From: Malus domestica
Taxonomy: Eukaryota; Streptophyta; Magnoliopsida; Rosales; Rosaceae
Assembly: GCF_042453785.1 (NCBI RefSeq)
Contig: NC_091675.1
Coordinates: 4,414,501-4,478,500, forward strand
DNA length: 64,000 nucleotides
Direction: 5' to 3'
The notes under the pieces are model-generated. The model saw only the letters and a list, made by a program, of their open reading frames with translations. It was not told where the DNA came from and ran no database searches. Every line of letters begins with the position of its first letter. Position 1 is the first letter of the stretch. Made by a program: the position numbers and the translations under genes. This document shows positions 5,101 through 60,252 of the stretch, in pieces.

Positions 5101-7255
5101 CCATATATCTTCCAATGAAAATAGCGAAGCATGCGCAGCAAGAGAAGTAATCATCATCCTGATTTAGCTATGATGCATGCAAGCCTTGGTCTTTAAGATC
5201 ATTTAAAATGTTTCTTCAAACAAAGAGAAACAGTTTTCTGCAGGCAGGCAGCCACTCGAAACTTGCTGCATCTTTTACGTGTGGAAGTACTAAACTAGAC
5301 CAATTGAAATTGATGGCCTAACTAAACATGCATTTAGGCCCTACCACACCAACACAATAATCAAATGATGGGTTTATGTTCATTTTATCTCTTGTAAGTA
5401 AGAACGGATTAGTTTGGATTGACTTGTAAGTAAGAACGGCTATTTAAATCTTGGTCAATGGATAATTGGTTAAGAAAATAAAGGTAAGAAATCAAGATGT
5501 ACATGTATCGAATATATTGAAGTATACTACAACAAACACGTTGTGATTGACATGTAAGTATGTAAGAATGACTGGCTACTTACATCTTCTTAGTTATTAG
5601 ATCCTTGATCAAGGACGTAACCGAATACACTAAAACATAGTAGAACATTCATGGAAGGAGCCAAGCATTTTCTGGAAGGAAACGAAGGAGCATATGAAAC
5701 TTGCATTGACCGCTGATGGAAAAGATTCATGTATCGAACGTACAATGATGAATTCAGAAGCTAGAAGTTGCAGCAGCAGAATAGGTACTTGTTGTCTCAG
5801 CTTCTGCAGGTCACTAGACTTGCGGCAGATTTTATTCTTCTGAAAAGGAGGAAATGTCTGCTATCAAAATCTATGGAGTCAGTCGGGTAATAGGAACATA
5901 ATTTCGCATTGCAGTCTAGCCCTCGACCTCTCCAACCTATATACTATCACTATTCCCCCATGTGAATATATCATAGTTCTTGACAAATGAACACAAAGAG
6001 AATATATCCCTATATCATCGCCTTTTGATTTGGCGTCGCCTGCAAGTATTGCGGTGAGATATATATATATATTATACTCCTTTTTACTTCATTTGTTTAA
6101 ACCACAACGAAATTTTTTGTCACAAGTTCATCTTGTTCTTTCCTATTGACTGTCATAGACGGCTTTTTGTTTTGTGTCGTTTTGTTTTTTTATGCATAGT
6201 TTATTTGTGCACACAATAATAATACAGTGGTTAAACGCTCTCTAGTACATACGAGCATATACAATGTTAAGACTTAATTTTTATTAGAGAGTGTATTAGT
6301 AAGTTTATCATCTTTGCGTGTACTAATAATATCATTGTACAAACATTGATTGGTGAGTTTTGCAACCAATAGTCTTGCAATTTCACATGTTAGTAAAAAA
6401 GTTGTAGCGGCCAACATTATGCTTCCATATACAAATCCAACAATTATGTTGTTTTTTGTCGTTTTTGATAAAATTGGTATCGAAAAGAGGAGCGAATCAA
6501 AAACAGGATGTGAGCTCTACCACTTAAGCTATAAGCTTCTTACACCAAACAAATAGAAGGTAGAAATTCCAAAGTGGTATATGCATGGATCCGGTTCCTC
6601 TACGTTTTCTTTTTATACCGGTTAAATCTTAATTTTAGGATGAAACATATATGTATTTGTATCGTGCTTAGATCCAAAACTACGTTGTAAAAATAAGATC
6701 AAATTGTAGCCCAATTTCATCTAAGGATGATGAAGGCCAAGGGAACTCCCATGTATAGTGAATCAGTGATAGCCCAATTAGACAGTTCAAATAATTGTTT
6801 GGGCCACAAGTTTTATCGAGACTTGTAATCAATCGTAGGAGTGGTCTGACCCAGCAAAAAGGTAAGAAAGTGGAGCCAACCCTTCAAGATTTTTAGCCCA
6901 CTACAAATCATTATGGACCCTATTTTATTGTGATAAATGGGCCACAAGATTAAACTCCAACAGAGAACCAGCGATGAAGCTTATCCCCGTCGTCGCCATG
7001 ACCGACATTCAACTCGTGATTTTGAGCTCATATCTAAGTATATATAAGAGTACTCGTGGCAATTGGCCCAAACAGGATGCCGGCCACAATTCAAATTTCA
7101 TGCAATTTTTGTTCTCGAACGATTAGTGCAGTAGAAGGGTAGGATATTCAAACATAAATGCCGAGTGAGAACACTTTATTCTAGCCAACTTATGCACGCT
7201 CGAATTTGACAAAATTCGTGGAAATTGTAAGAAAAGAATATGAGAAGCAAATCAC
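2200..7255. other. Intergenic stretch, nothing recognised
   Basis: About 5 kb with only short open frames lacking any recognisable domain. It contains an 11-base G run near 4647-4658, short TA runs near 6060, and loosely repeated TTGTAAGTAAGAACGG motifs near 5393-5440. I see no gene here. Confidence 0.5.
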
Positions 7256-37511: not shown

Positions 37512-38974
37512 TGTAGTGCCTCGTCGGTGACCTCGTTGCATTGGAAATCATGCAATCGCTTGGTCAAGAGTCTCTCTACTTCTTCCTGAATTTGCCTTTG
37601 TTGGGGTAACAGAGCTCTCGGCTGCCCCCAGCCATGACTTGGTGGTCTAGACTGCTCTTCCATGTGTTTGGCTCGTCTACGCCGCAGATGCAGTGCATGT
37701 GGTGCGTTCCTAGCAGGCAAGCGAGTTCTTCGCAGGCTGCTGGTTGAACTTGAGCTGGATTGAGTGACTGCCTCTTTCCGTCCGTCGTGCTGCCTACTCT
37801 GATGTGAGGTGGATGATGCTCCTTGTGGGCTTAGCCGCGAATGAACACTTTGTCCGGAAGGTTGCTCATGTTGACTATCGGAGTGTGACCCCAACCGTGA
37901 ATGTATGCTCATCCGTGGGCCTAGTCGAGAGTACACACTCCTCCGCGCGCTAAGACGGGGGTATACGCTATCTCGGGGGCCCAATCGGGAATGTACACTG
38001 CCTGAACGTTCGGCTCGTGGCTGGTCGAATGGCTGCTTGCCGGGACGCTGCTGGAAAGGTTCGTCTGCCCTTGTCCTACTTCGGGATACCTCGTCCGAGG
38101 CACGTTGGATCCCGATGCGTTGCAAAAGTTGATTCACCAAAGTTGTCTGTTGTGCAAGGGCGCTCGTCAACTCTATGACTTGTCGAGACAAGTGTTGTTC
38201 GCCATTTGGATTGGAAGAGCTTGGAAGGAATGCGCCTCCTTGGGCAGTGGAAATGTGGTAGACTCCGGGTGCGAGATTTGAATTGGGAAATGTCAAATCC
38301 GCGAAAAAATATGGTGAGAATGCCCCCGGCTCGATGGTAGGTCCGGGTGGTTGAGATAGTCTTGGGTTGACTTAGGCTGCTTGGAAAGCCACTGGAGCAT
38401 GATGGGCCGTGAGAGTGGGCTGCTCGTCGGGAGTAGGCTGGGTCACGAGAGCAGGCTGCTTGGCAGGAGCAGGCTGGGCCACAGGAGTGGGCTGCTCGAC
38501 GGAAGCAGGCGCGTGCTGCTCAATGCGCGGTGCATGTGAATGCGAGGCTTGGGCTTGGGTCCACGTAAACTTAGATGGCACGGCTTGGATCGTGGTCTTG
38601 GTACCGTGAGCCTTGGATGGCATGGCTCGGGCCGTGGTGAAGGCTTCATGGACCTCGCCACGAGTGGCTACCGAAGTAGCCACTGCGGTGGTTCCCATGG
38701 TGGCCGTGGTGAAGGCACCATGGACCTCGCCGCGGGTAGCTACCGAGGTAGCCACCACGGTGGTTCCCATGGTAGAAGTTTGTGGTGATGATGCCGCTCC
38801 CCTTATTGTTGCATTTTGCCTCACGGATCTCCGGGCCGTGGTGAAGGCTCCATGGACCTCGCCATGAGTGGCTACCGAAGTAGCCACCGCGGTGGTTCCC
38901 ATGGTGGCCGTGGTGAAGGCACCATGGACCTCGCCGCGGGTGGCTAACGAGGTAGCCACCACGGTGGTTCCCAT
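37512..38974 (-). pseudogene. Gypsy gag, N-terminal part with in-frame stop
   Basis: One minus-strand frame runs from 38974 to the hAT insertion, interrupted once by TAA at 38372-38374. The N-terminal part (38974-38628) is built of 24-residue repeats, followed by a Pro/Ala/Gln-rich stretch. After the stop come an RSVYSRLGPR-type repeated segment and a Lys/Arg-rich helix leading into the gag domain at 36556. The stop plus the inserted element make it non-functional. Confidence 0.65.
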
Positions 38975-38976
38975 GG
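38631..38976 (-). repeat. Four 72-bp in-frame repeats within gag
   Basis: The copies are at about 38631-38701, 38702-38773, 38834-38905 and 38906-38976. They form two adjacent pairs 203 bp apart, so a doublet was itself duplicated. Each unit encodes 24 residues (GTTVVATS-ATRGEVHGAFTTA type) and the frame is preserved. Confidence 0.75.
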
Positions 38977-39287
38977 TTGAATTGGATGTATTTTGTAGTT
39001 ATTTGGATATAATGGATGGTTTAATTGACAATTAATGGGTTAATTAGGCAATAAACCCATTAATTAGCCAATTAACATAATTTAAAAGGAATGTGTTTGG
39101 GAATTACCTTGTAGAAAGGATTTGATGAGATGGACTTTGAATTGTTACCTATTTTGGGCACTTCTGTCTTGGTTGAAAGAGGGTTGCCCGCTGCTTGCGC
39201 GTAGGAACCTCGTTGTACTGTAAGGGTATTTTTGTTATTTTTGTCCAAAAATCTACGTGTCGCCCTGTGAATATTTTTGGCTCCACA
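38975..39287 (-). repeat. Truncated 5' LTR of the gypsy element
   Basis: It corresponds to 32064-32376 of the 3' LTR. The truncation joins GGTTGAATTGGATG directly to a gag repeat, removing the distal LTR, primer binding site and leader. Confidence 0.8.
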
Positions 39288-48432: not shown

Positions 48433-51352
48433 ATGGATTTTGGGGTGGTGGGTTTTGGTGGGTTGGGGGGTGGTTGTTCTTCAGATTCTGGTTTTCCTCT
48501 TGCTGCTACTTCATCGGCAGATCAGGAGGCGGCCAAGCACAAGTGGTTGTACGGATCTGGGTACCACAGGCAGTGGAGATCTGCCGACGAGGAGGACTGG
48601 AGGAGCTCTAAACTTGCCAAGACTGATGATTTTTCATCTTCCAAAGCAAGGCAACAGCAGCAGTTACTGAGCTTCTCTAACTCTCCCAATCCAGAAGCTG
48701 TCTTGGTTGAAAAGAATGCCGCAATGCCTTACTTTCACCAAGCTGTATCTGCTTACAATAGAACTTCTGCAGGTAGTTAATTAGTAATCATGTTTAATTA
48801 AGATTGTGTTTTGTAAGTATCAGAGCGGCCTTTCTAGCCCCTTAAGCACTGCGTCGCTTCGATTTTTTTTAAAATATGAGCAACTGCATGGAGCTTTTGG
48901 GGTTTGGTAAATGTTTTACTGAAAAAAACATTGTTTGCGTTGGTTCCCCGGGAGGAGGACTTTGGTGGGAGGTCTTTTCATGGAATTTTTTTGAGTCTTG
49001 TCAAGCACTAGAAAAAGCCAAGTTGTTTTCTTCTTTACTAAAAAATCTTTGTCTACCCAGTTTTGGTGAAAACAAGAAGGCAAACAATTGGAGGAGAAAT
49101 AAAATAGATAAGCGACTGGTTCCAATTTCCTTTTTATTCTATCTTCTTCCGGTAAAATTTATAATAATAATAAAAAAAGAACTTCATGATTTTATTTTAA
49201 ATTTATTTTCTATTTCTGCAAAATTGGTTCTTGGGTTTTTTTTTTAATTTGTTTTTTTTGGGTTTCTGATTTCTGGCTGTGTTTCAGGGCATAATAGTGG
49301 GAGTTTGAGTAATGGAGGTGCTGCCATGCATTGGAGTATAGCAGGAGGCAAAGGACCTTTCACTCCATCTCAATGGATGGAGCTCGAACACCAGGCCTTG
49401 ATCTACAAATACATCACTGCCAATATGCCTATTCCATCCACTCTACTCGTCCCTATCAAGAAGGCCCTTGATTCTGCAGGATTTTCGACGTTTCCGAACG
49501 GACTTCTCAGGCCCAATTCATGTAATTTCTTCATTTTACTCGAATGAAAATGATTTCCGCACACTTCATTTTTTTTCTCTTATGCACGTTTCTGCTTATT
49601 TATGTGGCTTGTATTTCGCTTGATTTATTTAATCCAAAGGATAGAAATAAACTGGAGCAGAAAAAGGATGTTTGGAACACATGTTAGGACGCATGTCAGA
49701 CTTTTAGATTTTTCATGCCTTTCTTGCATTCTAAGTTTTTTGGATTTTCGTGGGGTTGTGTATGTGCAGTGGGATGGGGTTCTATCCATTTGGGATTCTC
49801 CAACAACACTGATCCCGAGCCGGGAAGGTGTCGCAGGACCGACGGGAAGAAATGGCGGTGCTGGAGAGATGCCGTTCCTGACCAAAAGTATTGTGAGCGG
49901 CACATGAACAGGGGTCGCCACCGTTCAAGAAAGCCTGTGGAAGGCCAGACCGGCCAGACCGGAACCACCGCCTCAAAGCAGCCTTTGGCTTCTTCGTCAT
50001 CAACATCCGTAGTTTCCGTTTCTGCTGGTGGTGGTGGCAGCAGCCATGCTATCACCAACCAGCAGCTCAAGAGCTCACAGCAGCCTGCTGCATCTAATTC
50101 TTCCGCAGCAGCCACTCAGATGAACAGGTGAAATAAAAAAGTTCAGACTCACCCGGTGGTCCTAAAATTTCTCATCTTTTCAGCATTTATTCCTCAACTT
50201 CATTACTTATAGAAAAATGATTTCCGCACTCTCTTTTTCCCTCCCACCTGCGCTCCTCACCTTTTAAAATAGCTCATCGATTGTATAAATAAAAAAAGAA
50301 CCATGGAAAAACAAGAAGAGAAGTGAACAAGGAAAAACGAGAGTGCAGAAATCATTTCCGTTACTTGTACAATCTAATAGAAATCACAGCATCTTTTACA
50401 TCCATCTTTTTATCAGCGTTGTTGGTCACTGCTCTTTTACTAGCTGAAGTTACTAGAATCTACTCAGATCCAATGTTAATCGTCTGATTCGTATCGGTGG
50501 TTCTTACGGGTTTGTTTCTGTATCTTGTTGATTTCTCTTTGCAGGATGTTCATTAACAAAGAGAATGCGGGTGGGAGAATTCAACACACACCAGGCCTCA
50601 CCATGCTGTCGAAAGAAAACCCATTCTCCACTCAGAAACAGCAAATCGGATACGAAGAATCCTCGAGAACGGAGTTCGGGCTTGTCCCCACTGACTCCCT
50701 CCTAAATCCTTCACAGAAAAGGTCATACCCTGCAGAAACAAATTCACAACAGCATTCCCTTCGCCACTTCATCGACGATTGGCCTAAAACTCAATCCGAC
50801 CGCCAACCTGTTTCATGGCCTAACCAACTCGGCATGCAATCAGACAGAACCCAATTATCAATTTCGATCCCCATAGCTTCATCCACAAGCAGTGAGAAGC
50901 TCACGCTCTCACCGCTCCGTCTCTCTAGGGAACTAGAGTCTCCGGCCCCAACGGGATTGGGAATAGACAGCAGCCTTACCCTCAATGAACAAAACAACAT
51001 GAAGCAAGCGAATTGGATTCCAATCGCTTGGGAGACTTCACCTGGCGGTCCTCTAGGGGAAGTCCTGCACAATCCCAACAGTAACAACAATGCAGTAGAG
51101 TACAGGAACAACTCTTCAGTCCTTAATCTGATGACTGGGGGAAGTTGGGACAACAATAACAATAGCCCTTCATCTTTAGGGTCATCTCCGACTGGTGTCC
51201 TACAGAAGGCGGCTTTTGGGTCTCGGTCGAATAGCAGTGCAGGGAGCAGTCCAAGAGCAGAGAATAATAATAGAAGCCATGAAGGGTTTAGCCTTTGCAA
51301 CGACCTCCTTGGGTCCAATATGTTCAACTCTTCCTCCTTGCCTGCCTTGTAG
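48433..51352 (+). CDS. GRF1/GRF2-like: Growth-regulating factor (QLQ and WRC domains)
   Basis: Plant-specific transcription factor that works with GIF co-activators to sustain cell proliferation in growing organs. Four exons, 48433-48772, 49288-49521, 49770-50127 and 50545-51352, all GT-AG, give 1740 nt and 579 aa. I start at the ATG of [10 protein letters not shown]. The QLQ domain (about 137-172, [18 protein letters not shown]) would bind GIF proteins. The WRC domain (about 206-250) has the zinc-binding C-x9-C-x10-C-x2-H pattern at C212, C222, C233 and H236, and basic residues for nuclear import. The C-terminal half has HFIDDWPK and a [10 protein letters not shown] block, shared with the GRF1/GRF2 group, then Ser/Asn-rich sequence. 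Exon 3 contains a miR396 target site. The gene points away from ANT (divergent). Confidence 0.94.
49922..49942 (+). promoter_or_regulatory. miR396 target site in the GRF transcript
   Basis: CGTTCAAGAAAGCCTGTGGAA, encoding RSRKPVE at the end of the WRC domain, is the conserved GRF site. It pairs with miR396 (5' end UUCCACAG) with the single bulge known for GRF targets. miR396 would cleave or repress this mRNA in maturing tissue. Confidence 0.93.
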
Positions 51353-52345: not shown

Positions 52346-52890
52346 CTAAATTTGAGTGCTCAGAAGCCAAGCGTAACAATTGTATTTCATTGAAAAATCC
52401 CAAACAAATCGGGATGTTTTCTTACGTGTTAGCTGCTCATCACTGCTCTCTTTCAAAAATCACAACTCTACTCATCCAATTCAATTCACCATCTTGCATT
52501 TTACCGATCCCTTCTTAGGGGATTTCATTCCTCCATACAAAAACGAGACGATAGGGCAACTGTACGGAAACTGTATTGTATTATAACATTTATATTGGGT
52601 CGCGTTCTCAGTACACTGAAAAAAAATATTAGTGTTTTTATGAGTTGAAGCTAATGTGGAGGTGTGCGTAACCCCAAATTCTGGATTTTTTTTTCGGGTC
52701 AATTAGGGCTTTAAACACCACCTAGATCCAATTTAGGAGTGTGTCCAATCACAGAAAACACTATTAGCAAAAATGCTCTGTGGATATACAATAACCAACT
52801 CCTCTAATTATATTTCCTATAAACCTTTATAAACCTTAAACCCTAAACGCTAAACCGAAAAGGCTGGATCTTCAAAAAAGTTATGGTTGC

Positions 52891-52980
52891 GCAATTTTTG
52901 GCACCGTTGCCGGGGAGCGGCTTGAGAAGGAGCGCTAGAGTATTTCTTAAGCTGCTTCCCGAAACGGTACCAAAAATTGC
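52891..52980 (-). ncRNA. 90-nt foldback matching a tRNA-Asp-type PBS, candidate MIR locus
   Basis: Positions 52891-52928 and 52943-52980 form inverted arms of 38 nt with three mismatches and three G-U pairs, plus a loop of about 14 nt, the dimensions of a plant pre-miRNA. One arm contains TGGCACCGTTGCCGGGGA, one base away from the complement of the 3' end of plant tRNA-Asp, i.e. the primer binding site used by many plant gypsy elements. Hence the foldback probably arose as an inverted copy of an LTR/PBS junction. On the minus strand a TATA-like TATAAAAA lies at 53396-53389, about 400 nt upstream. Expression is not shown. Confidence 0.45.
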
Positions 52981-53388
52981 AGAACACGAATGAGAAAATC
53001 ACAGCCAATATACAAAAAATACAAAAAAAAAAAAAAAAAATTGAAGTTAATGGGAGAATGAATGGTTGCTCATATTCTATGGGTGTATAGGTGTCTGTCA
53101 AGCCATGGCTATGGCAAATTCAGAACGAGGAATTTTTATAATCACCGCAACCAAGCACCCCATTTTTTCAAAAACTCAATCCAAAAACAACTCCACATGC
53201 ATCAAATGAATCAACAGAAAGCAATTCATAGATTTCAAACGAATCAACAGAAAACAATTCATAGATTCGAAAACATTTGCAAATTTTGAAAACGTTTAGG
53301 AAAAAATGGTTATACAAAATTTGGGTTCTGAAAACTGAGAGGAAACTGAGCCGCGGCTGCGATTGCTGATTTGCTCACCAAGTTCGTA

Positions 53389-53396
53389 TTTTTATA
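53389..53396 (-). promoter_or_regulatory. TATA-box candidate upstream of the foldback
   Basis: Minus-strand CCTATAAAAATACG lies in otherwise less AT-rich sequence. It could start a transcript through the 52891-52980 foldback and perhaps toward the broken exon at 52345. Sequence match only. Confidence 0.35.
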
Positions 53397-53748
53397 GGGA
53401 TATTATTGGTGAGGGAAGAAAGCACTCAAACCCTAGCGCGCGGCGCGCCACGTTAATTGAGATCAAAACGCCGGTGAAGGTGTTGTCGTACTTATTGGGT
53501 GGGTGAAAAATTGGGCCTTAATAGAAGGGAACGGTTGGGCCAAACCCAAATGAAGATACGGAGCCCCTTCTGAAGGTCAAACGCGAGAGCCAGAATTGGC
53601 ATGGGGACTTGTTTGTAAGAAATTTTAGTATAATTAAAAGCGCTTTTAGATTACCAAATGCGTTTCTGATCGTATTTGATAAAAAAAGAAGTTAATACTT
53701 TATGTTGAAATAAGTATTTAAAGTGCTTTTTGACAGTTTAATAACTAT

Positions 53749-53979
53749 GGGCTCATTTGGATGTGCTTTTAAAATAGTTAAAAGTGCTTTTAGAGAAAAT
53801 GTTTTTGGGTTTCAAAAGCACTTTAAGTGATTTCTGCAAGTAGTACCAGTGATGTGCTTCTTCAAGGAAGCACCTTAAGTGTTTTTCTAGGATTTACCAT
53901 TTTTACTAAGGATTGATTCCAAAAAATATTTTCACCAAAATTGCTTTCAGTTATTTTAAAAGCACATTCAAACAAGCCC
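53749..53979. mobile_element. 231-bp TIR element
   Basis: The left end GGGCTCATTTGGATGTGCTTTTAAAA and the complement of the right end GGGCTTGTTTGAATGTGCTTTTAAAA are clear terminal inverted repeats. Flanking TAT on both sides may be a 3-bp target duplication. GTGCTTTT modules recur inside and in the flank at about 53635-53735. Superfamily uncertain. Confidence 0.65.
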
Positions 53980-54274
53980 TATGTTATGTGCTTGTTTCAA
54001 GAAGTATTCCCCTCAGCTATATAAGCCAAAAAAAAAAAAAAAAAAAACTCCTCACAACTCTTTTACGCTATTGAACAATGACGTGAACTGGAAAGGGGCT
54101 CGCCATCTTTTCCCGATATTCATTTGGCGCATGGCTACAATTTTAATTAGTTAAACCTATCAAACAAAAGCAAAATTAAACTACCAATTTAAAGGCCACA
54201 ATTAGCACATAATCCTAAACCATTAACCTCGATCATTGCATTAGTTTCCACCATTACACTATCGATCAAACACC

Positions 54275-54694
54275 ATGCACCGGAGGAGAGGAAGTGACAA
54301 TGAGGTCGTATTGTCACGGCACTCCCGGGCTAATGTACCCTTTATATGGGAGATGAAGCCCGGGATGCCCAAGGCTGCAACGACTGTACATCATGGCGAT
54401 CATCGCGATCGTAGAGTACTATTAGATCATTTGAGCATGGAGCAGTTAAAGCTGACACCTCGTCCTCGTTTATCGTCCCTAAGTGGTGGCAGTGCTGGGT
54501 TCGTGGTGGTTGATCGGCAGAGCCGTCTTCCTTTATGCTCAATCCAGCCTTCGTTTAGGTTAAACTCGTTCCGATTAATCGTTGTCGGTGTTAAGAAGGA
54601 GGAAGATCCGTTTCTGGCAGCTTTGGTGAAATGCACGGGTAAGAAGTACGCTGGGAAGAAAACTAAGACCAGGTTTAGTTTTTCATGCAGGTAG
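54275..54694 (+). CDS. Small DUF688-like protein
   Basis: Single-exon frame of 139 aa. It carries NVPFIWEMKPGMPK at about residues 20-33, the VPF-WE-xPGxPK signature of the plant DUF688 family, and a second conserved piece EEDPFLAALVKCTGK near 108-122. It ends basic (KKTKTRFSFSCR). No signal peptide or membrane segment is evident. Family members have no established biochemical function. A paralogue with the same two motifs in the same order lies 7 kb downstream at 61383-61835. The start MHRRRGSD is the only upstream ATG in frame. Expression is not shown, but the shared motifs argue that it is a real gene. Confidence 0.7.
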   Translation: MHRRRGSDNEVVLSRHSRANVPFIWEMKPGMPKAATTVHHGDHRDRRVLLDHLSMEQLKLTPRPRLSSLSGGSAGFVVVDRQSRLPLCSIQPSFRLNSFRLIVVGVKKEEDPFLAALVKCTGKKYAGKKTKTRFSFSCR

Positions 54695-56859: not shown

Positions 56860-59800
56860 TCAAGTTGGAGCATAGATATCACACATGCCCAACTTGACAA
56901 GTGAGTCACCAAAAGATCTACTACACACAGCATGAGTGAGGATATCCGCAAGTTGCTCTTCGGAGTTCACAAATGGTATTGAAACAATGTTCTTCTCCAA
57001 CTTCTCCTTAATAAAATGACGATCAACCTCCACATGCTTTGTTCTGTCATGTTGTACCGGGTTCTCTGCAATCTCCCGTGCAGATTTATTATCACAATAC
57101 AAACTTGTCGCCTCCTTTACTTTGAAACCTAGACCATCAAGTAACTTACGTAACCAAAGGACTTCACATATTCCATGTGCCATTCCTCTGAATTCGGACT
57201 CAGCTGACGATCTTGACACCACGTTTTGCTTTTTGCTCCTCCAAGTAACCAGATTTCCACCAACAAACGTAAAGTATCCAGAAGTAGATCTTCTATCAGT
57301 TACATCACCTGCCCAATCATCATCAGTAAATCCTTCAATCCTCAGATGACCGGAATTTTTATACAAAATTCCTTTTCTTGGAGCCGACTTCAAATAAGCT
57401 AAAATCCGCATAACAGCTGCCATATGATCCACACTTGGCGAGTGCATAAACTGACTCACCACACTTACTGCATAGGCTATATCCGGACGGGTATGTGCTA
57501 AGTAAATTAGTCTTCCTACCAGTCTCTGATATCTGCCTTTATCCACTGGTTCTTGATCCGGATAAATTCCCAAGTAATGTTTCTCCACAATGGGAGTATC
57601 CACGGGTTTACACCCAAGCATCCCTGTTTCCTTCAATAAATCCAGAACATATTTCCGTTGAGACAAGAAAATACCTCTGGACGAACGAGCAACTTCCACA
57701 CCAAGGAAATACTTCAAGTCACCTAAACTCTTCATCTCAAACTCGGCAGAAAGGTTCTTCTCCAGTTTGACCATTTCATCTGAATCATCACCTGTTATTA
57801 TCATATCATCTACATAAATAATTAAGGCTGTCACTTTACCACTTCTTCGTTTCACAAATAATGTATGATCCGAGTGACTTTGATAATACCCAATCCGCCT
57901 CATAACTTGGGTGAATCTACCAAACCACGCACGAGGTGATTGCTTAAGTCCGTAGAGTGACTTTCGCAACCTACATACTCCGGTTTTCCCTCCAGCATCG
58001 TACCCTGGAGGAAAATCCATGTATACCTCTTCTTCCAAGTGCCCATGAAGAAAAGCATTTTTCACATCAAACTGTTTTAGTGGCCAATTCAAATTTGCAG
58101 CTAAAGAAATCAGAACTCGTACTGTATTCATCTTCGCTACTGGAGAAAAAGTCTCCTGATAATCAACACCATAAGTTTGAGTATAACCTTTTGCTACTAA
58201 CCTTGCTTTATATCTGTCTACTGATCCGTCTGCCTTGTATTTGATCGTAAAGACCCATCTACACCCAACTGGTTTCTTTCCTTTAGGTAGCTCCGTTACC
58301 TCCCATGTATCATTCTTATGTAGTGCCATCATTTCCTCATCCATTGCAGCAACCCATTTAGGATCCTTCAAGGCCTCTTCAACTCGGGTTGGTGCTTGGA
58401 TTGCTTCCACATTGTATACCCAGGCTTGACGTTCTGGTGCAAGGTTTGAGCATGACACATAATTAGCTATTGGATACTTCAATTTTCCTTCAGGAGAAAA
58501 CCTGTCAGGAGGAACACCACGATTTTGCCTTGGAGGCAACTTATATGTACTCATAACATTATCTGGATTAGTTACATGAGTATCAGTAGTACTTACCTCA
58601 TGAATACTCAGAGAAGACATATTGGGTGGCACTATTGAGCTTAAGAGAGAGGGGGTTGCGGGTTCGGTAACTAATGGTTGCTGGAGCGGTGAAACTGGTT
58701 CGGCAGCTTCCTGTTGACACTCTCCATCACACTCGGCAGCATGTTGCCGAGAAGACTCAGCTGGTTCAGTGCTACTTGGCTGAATGATACTCACATTCTC
58801 GGCAGTGTCTTGTCGAGAGTCACTGTCTCCATTCTCGGCAGTGTCTTGCCGAGAGCTTTCACAACTTTTGTTGTCAATAAATACTCCCTCTGAGCTACAT
58901 ATTTCCAACCACCCAAGATCACCACTCGTATTCTCCCCCGGGTGATCGGAAGGTGATGGAGTCGAAGCATACAAGAACTCAGATTCGGAAAAGGTAACAT
59001 CCATAGTTACATACATATGACGAGTTTCAAGGTGGTAGCACTTATACCCTTTCTGTTGAGGAGCAAAACCCAGAAAAACACACCGGTGAGCACATGGATC
59101 GAGCTTACTACGATGAATCTTGTGAATATGAACATAGGCTACACACCCAAATACACGAGGAGAAAGAGTATTAGTTGACACTACTGGAACAAATTCTGTC
59201 AATACTTGGAGAGGTGTACGAAAATCCACAACCCGGGATGGCATACGGTTAATCACATACACGGCATAGGTGACAGCTTCAGGCCAGAACCGTTTAGGTA
59301 CAGATGCACCAATGAGCAAGGCACGAGCAGTTTCTAGGATATGACGGTTCTTTCTTTCAGCAACCCCATTTTGTTGTGGGGTATGAGGGCAAGTAGTCTC
59401 ATGTAGAATTCCTTGATCCTGAAGAAAGCCGGACAACTCGGAACCAATATACTCACCTCCATTATCAGAGCGGAGAACCTTAATAACAGAGGAATATTGT
59501 GTTGCAACCATTTGAGAGAATGATCGAAACACCATACCCACATCACTTTTATTCTTCATCACATAAATCCAAGTCATACGAGTGCAATCATCAACGAAGG
59601 TAACAAACCATTTAATTCCAGACAAAGTACTAACAGGAGAGGGACCCCAGACATCAGAGTGCACAAGTTCAAAAGGAAACAATCTTTTATTCATACTAGG
59701 AGGAAATGAAACGCGATGACTTTTCGCGAGAATACATACCTCACAATGTAAATCTGATTCTTTTATTTCATGAAATAAACTAGGCAACATACGCCTCAAA

Positions 59801-60252
59801 TACCCAAACGAAGCATGTCCTAACCGACGATGCAATAACCAAACTTCATGTAAATTATTGGTACGAGATGCTCGGACTGCATTAGCTCTGCCAGGAACGA
59901 CGTCTTCCACATAATATAACCCCTCTCTCTTAGTGCCACGCCCAATTATCTCCTTGGTCTGAATATCCTGAAGCAAACAAAACAATGGATACATAAGTAC
60001 AACACAGTCTAATTGCTCAGTAACTTGAGGAATAGATAACAAATTATGAGACAACGAGGGAACAAGCAGGCAGTGATAGAGGGGAAGGGCTGGCGTGAGG
60101 TTCACAGTGCCAGCCCCCAAAACCGGTGCTATTGTTCCGGTAGCAGTTGCAATACACTTCCGTGAACTGGTTGTCATACTAGTAAATAAATTCTTATCAA
60201 AAGTCATATGATCGGTTGCACCCGAGTCTAGAATCCAACCTGCATTCGTCAT
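56860..60252 (-). CDS. Copia pol polyprotein (protease, integrase, RT, RNase H)
   Basis: 1130 codons without interruption. The order protease, integrase, reverse transcriptase, RNase H is that of Ty1/copia. The protease active site DSGATDHM is at residues 9-16, right at the N-terminus. The integrase zinc-binding HHCC (HRRLGHAS ... CEVC) is near 140-175, and the DDE triad includes DNGGEY and NGVAERKNR near 260-300. The RT has LVAKGYTQ and the YVDDM catalytic motif. The RNase H has DDDWAGD and a conserved SRSSAESEF block. What is missing is gag with its zinc knuckle, normally fused upstream; the frame opens at MTNAGW just before the protease. Such a polyprotein could not build particles alone. 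The reading frame shows no decay, matching the identical LTRs. Confidence 0.92.
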   Translation of the reverse strand: MTNAGWILDSGATDHMTFDKNLFTSMTTSSRKCIATATGTIAPVLGAGTVNLTPALPLYHCLLVPSLSHNLLSIPQVTEQLDCVVLMYPLFCLLQDIQTKEIIGRGTKREGLYYVEDVVPGRANAVRASRTNNLHEVWLLHRRLGHASFGYLRRMLPSLFHEIKESDLHCEVCILAKSHRVSFPPSMNKRLFPFELVHSDVWGPSPVSTLSGIKWFVTFVDDCTRMTWIYVMKNKSDVGMVFRSFSQMVATQYSSVIKVLRSDNGGEYIGSELSGFLQDQGILHETTCPHTPQQNGVAERKNRHILETARALLIGASVPKRFWPEAVTYAVYVINRMPSRVVDFRTPLQVLTEFVPVVSTNTLSPRVFGCVAYVHIHKIHRSKLDPCAHRCVFLGFAPQQKGYKCYHLETRHMYVTMDVTFSESEFLYASTPSPSDHPGENTSGDLGWLEICSSEGVFIDNKSCESSRQDTAENGDSDSRQDTAENVSIIQPSSTEPAESSRQHAAECDGECQQEAAEPVSPLQQPLVTEPATPSLLSSIVPPNMSSLSIHEVSTTDTHVTNPDNVMSTYKLPPRQNRGVPPDRFSPEGKLKYPIANYVSCSNLAPERQAWVYNVEAIQAPTRVEEALKDPKWVAAMDEEMMALHKNDTWEVTELPKGKKPVGCRWVFTIKYKADGSVDRYKARLVAKGYTQTYGVDYQETFSPVAKMNTVRVLISLAANLNWPLKQFDVKNAFLHGHLEEEVYMDFPPGYDAGGKTGVCRLRKSLYGLKQSPRAWFGRFTQVMRRIGYYQSHSDHTLFVKRRSGKVTALIIYVDDMIITGDDSDEMVKLEKNLSAEFEMKSLGDLKYFLGVEVARSSRGIFLSQRKYVLDLLKETGMLGCKPVDTPIVEKHYLGIYPDQEPVDKGRYQRLVGRLIYLAHTRPDIAYAVSVVSQFMHSPSVDHMAAVMRILAYLKSAPRKGILYKNSGHLRIEGFTDDDWAGDVTDRRSTSGYFTFVGGNLVTWRSKKQNVVSRSSAESEFRGMAHGICEVLWLRKLLDGLGFKVKEATSLYCDNKSAREIAENPVQHDRTKHVEVDRHFIKEKLEKNIVSIPFVNSEEQLADILTHAVCSRSFGDSLVKLGMCDIYAPT

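Follow-up and report, generated by a model that had tools for sequence, protein, structure and literature searches.

A pre-miRNA-like foldback carrying a retrotransposon tRNA-Asp primer binding site in a snoRNA cluster of Malus domestica: a possible sno-miRNA gene

A promoter composed of a telo-box, Site II motifs and a TATA box is the type found at plant snoRNA clusters, and sno-miRNA genes have been described in Arabidopsis (sno-miR775 and sno-miR779) and rice (sno-miR1850) (Qu et al. 2015, PMC4660826). Other miRNAs are directed against the primer binding site (PBS) of LTR elements. The PBS-targeting miR845 of Arabidopsis has members of 21 and 22 nt, of which the 22-nt one, miR845b, starts with a 5′ U (PMC8824631), while fve-miR1511 of strawberry comes from one locus and is directed against LTR-element PBSs (Surbanovski et al. 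2016, as cited in PMC9780303 and PMC8215267). Furthermore, 3′ CCA tRNA fragments act against the PBS according to a review (PMC8215267).

Here, we analysed a stretch of 64,000 nucleotides of Malus domestica, positions 4414501-4478500 of the contig called C15 below (hereafter the window). Like the sno-miRNA genes, which are transcribed by Pol II, it contains a snoRNA cluster under a telo-box, Site II and TATA promoter with a pre-miRNA hairpin-like foldback on the same strand, and like sno-miR779 it combines two C/D snoRNAs with a hairpin (PMC4660826). However, the hairpin follows the snoRNAs in sno-miR779 and sno-miR1850, whereas here it lies between them. In addition, the snoRNAs here are snoR8a and snoR24 and one hairpin arm is a retrotransposon PBS, unlike what is described there for the known sno-miRNA genes. 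A shared transcript and a need for DCL1 are reported for those genes (PMC4660826) and are predictions for the present locus.

The candidate small RNA resembles miR845 in being complementary to an LTR-element PBS and in having 22 nt with a 5′ U; in contrast to miR845, which is directed to the tRNA-Met PBS, is expressed and has mapped cuts (PMC8824631), it concerns the tRNA-Asp PBS and is predicted from the DNA. As a candidate directed to the PBS in a Rosaceae plant it resembles the single-locus fve-miR1511, but the strawberry miRNA addresses the initiator-methionine PBS and the candidate here the tRNA-Asp PBS in a snoRNA setting. As judged by the tRNA-Asp PBS and by Rfam, the locus falls outside the miR845/miR1511 families with their initiator/methionine tRNA PBS. 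No report of a snoRNA-flanked tRNA-Asp-PBS hairpin was found in the main texts of the open-access literature searched.

Two listed small RNAs, ath-miR8175 (GAUCCCCGGCAACGGCGCCA; miRNA* listed as 'NO'; PMC3906980) and Cleome_novel_miR3 (cgauccccggcaacggugcca; PMC5396198), share the tRNA-Asp 3′ sequence, or PBS complement, with the hairpin, and Cleome_novel_miR3 also has the U variant of the hairpin. They start with GAU and CGAU, respectively, which are absent from the hairpin, and end at CCA, whereas the hairpin RNA runs into an A-run. Since both start with tRNA bases and end at CCA, they may be tRNA fragments. The 3′ CCA tRNA fragments have the same kind of pairing target but are cut from the tRNA and not from a hairpin gene (PMC8215267). 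A search with sequence words of the hairpin returned the small RNA of PMC5396198 that starts with tRNA bases, besides unrelated papers (HIV, HLA-G, rat). Products of the hairpin itself did not appear in the main texts of the open-access literature searched, new miRNAs being reported mostly in supplements.

Foldback and snoRNA cluster

The pre-miRNA-like hairpin, consisting of a main stem and a loop, occupies 52890..52981 on the minus strand, based on RNA folds and on a homeolog copy on contig C8. Its 5′ arm (52981-52944) and 3′ arm (52928-52890) have a length of about 38 nt each and enclose a terminal loop of about 15 nt (~52943-52929). The piece 52881-52990 folds with -60.4 kcal/mol (z -8.7) on the plus strand and -49.9 kcal/mol (z -8.2) on the minus strand, hence more stably on the plus strand, and on either strand none of 200 shuffles was equally stable. 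The foldback proposed in the preliminary description is thus real and beyond chance, with a fold z of about -8 on both strands. When 110-nt segments were scanned at a step of 20 (3195 per strand), stronger folds were confined to two plus-strand and six minus-strand segments, all starting at 38.62-38.88 kb and lying in a repetitive region (38.6-39.0 kb). An open frame at ~38372-38990, tandemly repeated by eye, contains the most stable folds of all, with values to -69 kcal/mol per 110 nt.

Plant miRNAs are recognised by a single-strand foldback whose duplex is little mismatched and free of large bulges, and by miRNA/miRNA* reads of 20-24 nt that are precise and leave 2-nt overhangs. The first of these features is present here. 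The stretch GGCTGTGATTTTCTCA (52991..53006, minus strand), identical in the C8 copy by alignment, can pair with CAGCC (52862-52866, minus strand) as a basal stem under the hairpin in the C15 fold of 52840-53015. The larger recent inverted LTR insertion that had been named as a possible source of the arms was not seen, since the hairpin is present in both homeologs and no larger inverted repeat surrounds it within 50-56 kb. At the Rfam cut-off, the hairpin was not assigned to any known miRNA family; the matches below this threshold were MIR2606 (E 1.8) and mir-284 (E 0.66).

The preliminary description did not include the setting of the hairpin, which is placed on the snoRNA strand (minus) between two box C/D snoRNAs, namely snoR8a upstream (53064..53154, minus strand; Rfam RF01284, 94.1 bits) and snoR24 downstream (52355..52449, minus strand; RF00132, 83.4 bits). 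Above snoR8a lies a promoter with a TATA box at 53390..53396 (minus strand), a telo-box AAACCCTA at 53428..53435 (plus strand) and two Site II motifs TGGGCY at 53512-53517 and 53536-53541 (plus strand). All these elements are kept in the C8 copy (stretch L004; TATA box 5300-5306, telo-box 5332-5339, two Site II motifs). The TATA-like box noted earlier on the minus strand is therefore present, but it belongs to the snoRNA cluster and not to a lone MIRNA gene; the TATA pattern had no plus-strand match in either copy. Between the hairpin and snoR24, a second telo-box (52838..52845, plus strand; L004 4771-4778) leaves room for two transcription units and is possibly part of a separate snoR24 promoter.

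Other features were observed nearby. A MITE-like inverted repeat at 53741-53987, with 75-nt arms that are 76% complementary and 97 nt apart, lies just upstream of the snoRNA promoter. An open frame of 1130 codons (56860-60252, minus strand) resembles a Copia-type retrotransposon pol by eye. A growth-regulating-factor (GRF) type gene (~48434-51352, plus strand) encodes a WRC domain in the piece 49715-50131 and contains CGTTCAAGAAAGCCTGTGGAA at 49922-49942, which we take to be the miR396 target site.

Primer binding site in the hairpin arm

One hairpin arm contains TTTTTGGCACCGTTGCCGGGGA, the tRNA-Asp PBS of Ty3/gypsy elements. The motif TGGCACCGTTGCCGGGGA at 52899-52916 is the sole match in the window with up to three mismatches, where 0.02 would be expected. 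The match extends upstream through TTTTT, a point absent from the preliminary description, so that 22 nt (52895..52916, plus strand) are identical to the Ty3/gypsy tRNA-Asp PBS with its T-run in an exact pattern search of the genome (651 Mb, 19 contigs). The motif with GGCR, TTTTTGGCRCCGTTGCCGGGGA, occurred at 717 exact places, 364 on the plus and 353 on the minus strand, compared with 0 for the reversed control; the GGCA form accounts for 39 of the 717, the hairpin included. A Pfam scan of segments from 8-kb stretches around two PBS-bearing elements detected gag in both; in one of them it was joined by reverse transcriptase, RNase H and integrase, arranged as in Ty3/gypsy elements.

The 3′ part of tRNA-Asp gave 34 genomic matches, of which eight were examined. 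Seven of these are tRNA-Asp(GTC) genes according to ARAGORN, none of them followed by an encoded CCA. ARAGORN did not recognise the eighth as a tRNA, and its sequence continues as a PBS. Compared with the seven genes, the arm is the complement of the tRNA-Asp 3′ end plus CCA with one change (GGCG to GGCA), which agrees with the 17 of 18 bases stated earlier. An origin from a tRNA gene was rejected: the arm carries the CCA complement and the T-run common to the 717 places, which points to a retroelement PBS, as had been proposed. At a retroelement-like site that ARAGORN does not call a tRNA (L059 ~1501; C6:8940508-8940528), the likeness to tRNA-Asp extends into the tRNA for 31 nt or more plus CCA, as would result from primer copying beyond the usual point.

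The likeness of the hairpin to the elements is confined to 22-24 nt, (AA)TTTTTGG...GGGGA. Among the first 30 of the 717 places, all on C1 and C2, the motif is followed by TTAG or TTGG in 29 and by TTGT in one; none of these 30 continues like the hairpin, the likeness ending at 22-24 nt. GCAA followed by the PBS has no other exact match in the genome, and the PBS end followed by GCGGCTTGA has no other place with 0-2 mismatches. When three mismatches were allowed, the latter pattern retrieved the hairpin, its C8 copy (3 mismatches) and two other places (3 each), against one for the reversed control. A source element with the outer arm sequence was thus not found by the genome pattern searches, nor was LTR sequence recognisable in the arms. 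The preliminary proposal of an inverted LTR/PBS junction is not supported by this match, which is limited to the 22-24 nt around the PBS.

Homeologous copy and divergence

A copy of the hairpin with 84% identity is located at C8:6015332-6015429. The alignment of the C8 stretch with the window takes in the GRF gene, the two snoRNAs with their order unchanged and a stretch with the open frame 54275-54694, and this shared gene order indicates a segmental or whole-genome duplicate. Strand and order of snoR8a, hairpin and snoR24 are the same in both homeologs. Because both copies lie beside the same GRF gene, the hairpin is older than the C15/C8 duplication. As a 131-nt piece, the C8 hairpin folds with -71.6 kcal/mol (z -9.65) on the minus strand and -60.6 kcal/mol (z -7.8) on the plus strand; it is therefore more stable on the minus strand, whereas the C15 copy is more stable on the plus strand.

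By the patterns used, the hairpin is unique to these two loci. Foldbacks with PBS-like arms 45-75 nt apart (exact pattern, 651 Mb) were found at the C15 and C8 loci only, with 0 for the reversed control. A MITE or other repeat family was rejected, as this pattern and a DNA search with a 110-nt query, which passes over very common words, matched the C15 and C8 loci alone. Two snoR8a loci were found in the genome, each beside the hairpin. Of six snoR24 loci, the other four have neither of the two PBS-like 11-mers searched and no snoR8a in the 3 kb examined, so that snoR24 genes do not generally include this hairpin. Some of the further snoR24 loci have features of their own: a foldback of -53.4 kcal/mol over 130 nt, unrelated in sequence by eye, lies about 0.5 kb upstream of snoR24 in L052 (~2116-2245), and folds of -53.1 and -41.8 occur at a like distance in L050 and L047, respectively. 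L051 (C9) contains two tandem snoR24 matches (1501-1592 and 1718-1815), and tRNA genes lie about 1 kb from snoR24 in L047 (2501-2572) and L050 (2551-2622).

Between C15 and C8, the arms differ at 12 of 79 aligned sites (15.2%) and the loop at 8 of 14, compared with 16/81 in spacer 1, 34/172 in the leader, 49/212 in the promoter stretch, 68/219 in spacer 2, 0/87 in snoR8a and 4/95 in snoR24. In two GRF exons nearby, 24 of 162 four-fold sites differ (14.8%), so that the arms evolve at close to the neutral rate. Conservation of the arms beyond neutral expectation, which would support a miRNA but is not required of young ones, is thus not seen between the homeologs. The arms differ from the loop (p 0.0016), with the loop faster than neutral rather than the arms slower, and from spacer 2 (p 0.007), with p 0.063 against leader and spacers pooled; they are not significantly more conserved than the leader (p 0.48), spacer 1 (p 0.53) or the promoter (p 0.15). 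In a sliding-window analysis, shuffles matched the best 21-nt window in 3072, the best 26-nt window in 1126 and the best 40-nt window in 696 of 5000 cases. The attempt to prove purifying selection on the sequence therefore failed.

Folding was assessed with 1000 neutral simulations starting from the most stable parsimonious ancestor or from random parsimonious ancestors. The joint stability of the two copies was reached in 4.0% (minus) and 4.5% (plus) of the runs from the most stable ancestor, values that do not separate the strands, and in 0.4% (minus) and 0% (plus) of those from random ancestors. Copy by copy, with the stable ancestor, the corresponding values for C15 and C8 were 17% and 7.5% on the minus strand and 2.9% and 55% on the plus strand. 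Promoter, leader and spacers together show 21 gap events in 684 aligned sites, from which about 2.9 would be expected in the 93 columns of the hairpin, but these are ungapped. One stem pair changed on both sides and, by eye, has kept its minus-strand pairing (G-C in C15, U-G in C8). Within the PBS-antisense stretch, 3 of 22 positions differ between the copies. Combined, the evidence for selection is mixed and mostly negative for the sequence; folding alone shows constraint, and this is weak.

Candidate small RNA and its interpretation

The best predicted C15 product is UCCCCGGCAACGGUGCCAAAAA, a candidate small RNA of 22 nt with a 5′ U, which runs from 52916 to 52895 on the minus strand and is complementary to the PBS with its T-run, and thus to the PBS of LTR elements in its own genome. 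Using a plant-type target score against three PBS contexts, 11 minus-strand 21-nt registers in C15 and five in C8 scored 4 or less (best 0 and 3), whereas the plus strand had none in C15 and one in C8. In both copies, the minus-strand 3′ arm could therefore be the source of a PBS-antisense RNA of 21-22 nt, while the plus strand hardly could; this prediction is in line with the earlier suggestion of a hairpin RNA against tRNA-Asp-primed elements. A plus-strand miRNA is disfavoured even though C15 folds better there, as C8 is more stable on the minus strand, its products hardly fit the PBS and the TATA pattern gave no plus-strand match. Two of the three changes in the PBS-antisense stretch of C8 are A to G and keep pairing in stem and target through G-U. 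Neutral change nevertheless leaves a score of 3 or less in 21% (22 changes at any position) to 54% (13 changes confined to the arms) of 1000 runs, so that its survival in C8 proves nothing.

Our leading interpretation, held tentatively and short of an even chance, is that of a candidate snoRNA-miRNA gene directed against gypsy elements with tRNA-Asp as primer. RNA polymerase II would start below the promoter of telo-box, Site II and TATA elements near 53.4 kb; to judge from the layout, the minus-strand transcript would run through snoR8a, the hairpin and probably snoR24. The hairpin, which predates the C15/C8 duplication, would have arisen by an inverted duplication that included a gypsy tRNA-Asp PBS, as its 22-24 nt of PBS identity suggest. 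A Dicer-like enzyme, most likely DCL1, would excise it separately from the snoRNAs, with a 21-22 nt RNA like the one predicted above as the product of its 3′ arm. Loaded into AGO1, this RNA would pair with the gypsy PBS perfectly at 38 other places and with one G-U at 678, and would cut gypsy transcripts or block priming. By analogy with what is proposed for miR845b, a 22-nt product would also start secondary siRNAs.

The fold z, the strand, order and promoter kept in both copies, the PBS identity and the restriction to two loci support such a gene, as do the minus-strand target registers, the rarity of the joint minus-strand stability and the ungapped alignment. Moreover, both halves of it have precedents, sno-miR775/779 (PMC4660826) and miR845 (PMC8824631). 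It is weakened by the four-fold rate of the arms, which are no more conserved than leader, spacer 1 or promoter, by the changed PBS-antisense positions and the neutral survival of the target score, and also by the modest copy-by-copy stability, the failure of joint stability to separate the strands and the better plus-strand fold of C15. Products of the hairpin did not appear in the main texts searched, and 3′ fragments of mature tRNA-Asp could take the role of the hairpin RNA. The four-fold rate of the arms suits a drifting fossil, an inverted PBS-bearing fragment trapped in the snoRNA spacer before the duplication and transcribed and degraded with it, free of any selected function. A change of about 7% per copy would leave a 38-bp stem a stem without selection, and the PBS complement frequently holds its score under neutrality. 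However, even with the most stable ancestor as the start, few neutral runs reached the joint stability, gaps are absent from the hairpin, and the arms changed less than the loop, although there the loop is fast and not the arms slow. We consider this explanation a serious one, almost as likely as a working small-RNA gene.

Two less likely explanations were also weighed. A long inverted repeat could feed DCL3/DCL4 and give mixed 21-24 nt siRNAs, PBS-directed ones included, with no defined miRNA. The stem of ~38 bp is near-perfect, and near-perfect stems of young foldbacks give mixed products. Even sno-miR775 yields 21-24 nt species (PMC4660826). On the other hand, mismatches and G-U pairs are already there and the locus is older than the duplication, and we regard this possibility as improbable. 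Alternatively, the hairpin may be an RNase III processing signal that releases snoR8a and snoR24, like the yeast Rnt1 stems, with the PBS likeness as accidental raw material. Its position between the two snoRNAs in both copies, the strong folds upstream of snoR24 in L052 (unrelated in sequence) and L050, and the start of polycistronic pre-snoRNA processing by an RNase III homolog (PMC4660826) would fit, but the other four snoR24 loci without PBS-like 11-mers or a nearby snoR8a speak against it, and we rate it as very unlikely.

If the candidate snoRNA-miRNA gene is functional, the locus would combine sno-miRNA genes with the PBS-directed miR845/miR1511 systems, with a different primer tRNA. 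The known PBS-directed miRNAs compared here (miR845 and miR1511) target tRNA-Met-primed elements, and a tRNA-Asp version would widen this class to another large set of plant gypsy elements. It is a more doubtful proposition that a retrotransposon-directed miRNA has been built into a housekeeping snoRNA operon, with an anti-gypsy defence that is on where ribosome production is high and a guide captured from the element's own PBS. If true, its place in the operon would tie transposon control to growth, the defence would be active in dividing cells, meristems and gametophytes, and an element could hardly alter the targeted PBS without losing its primer.
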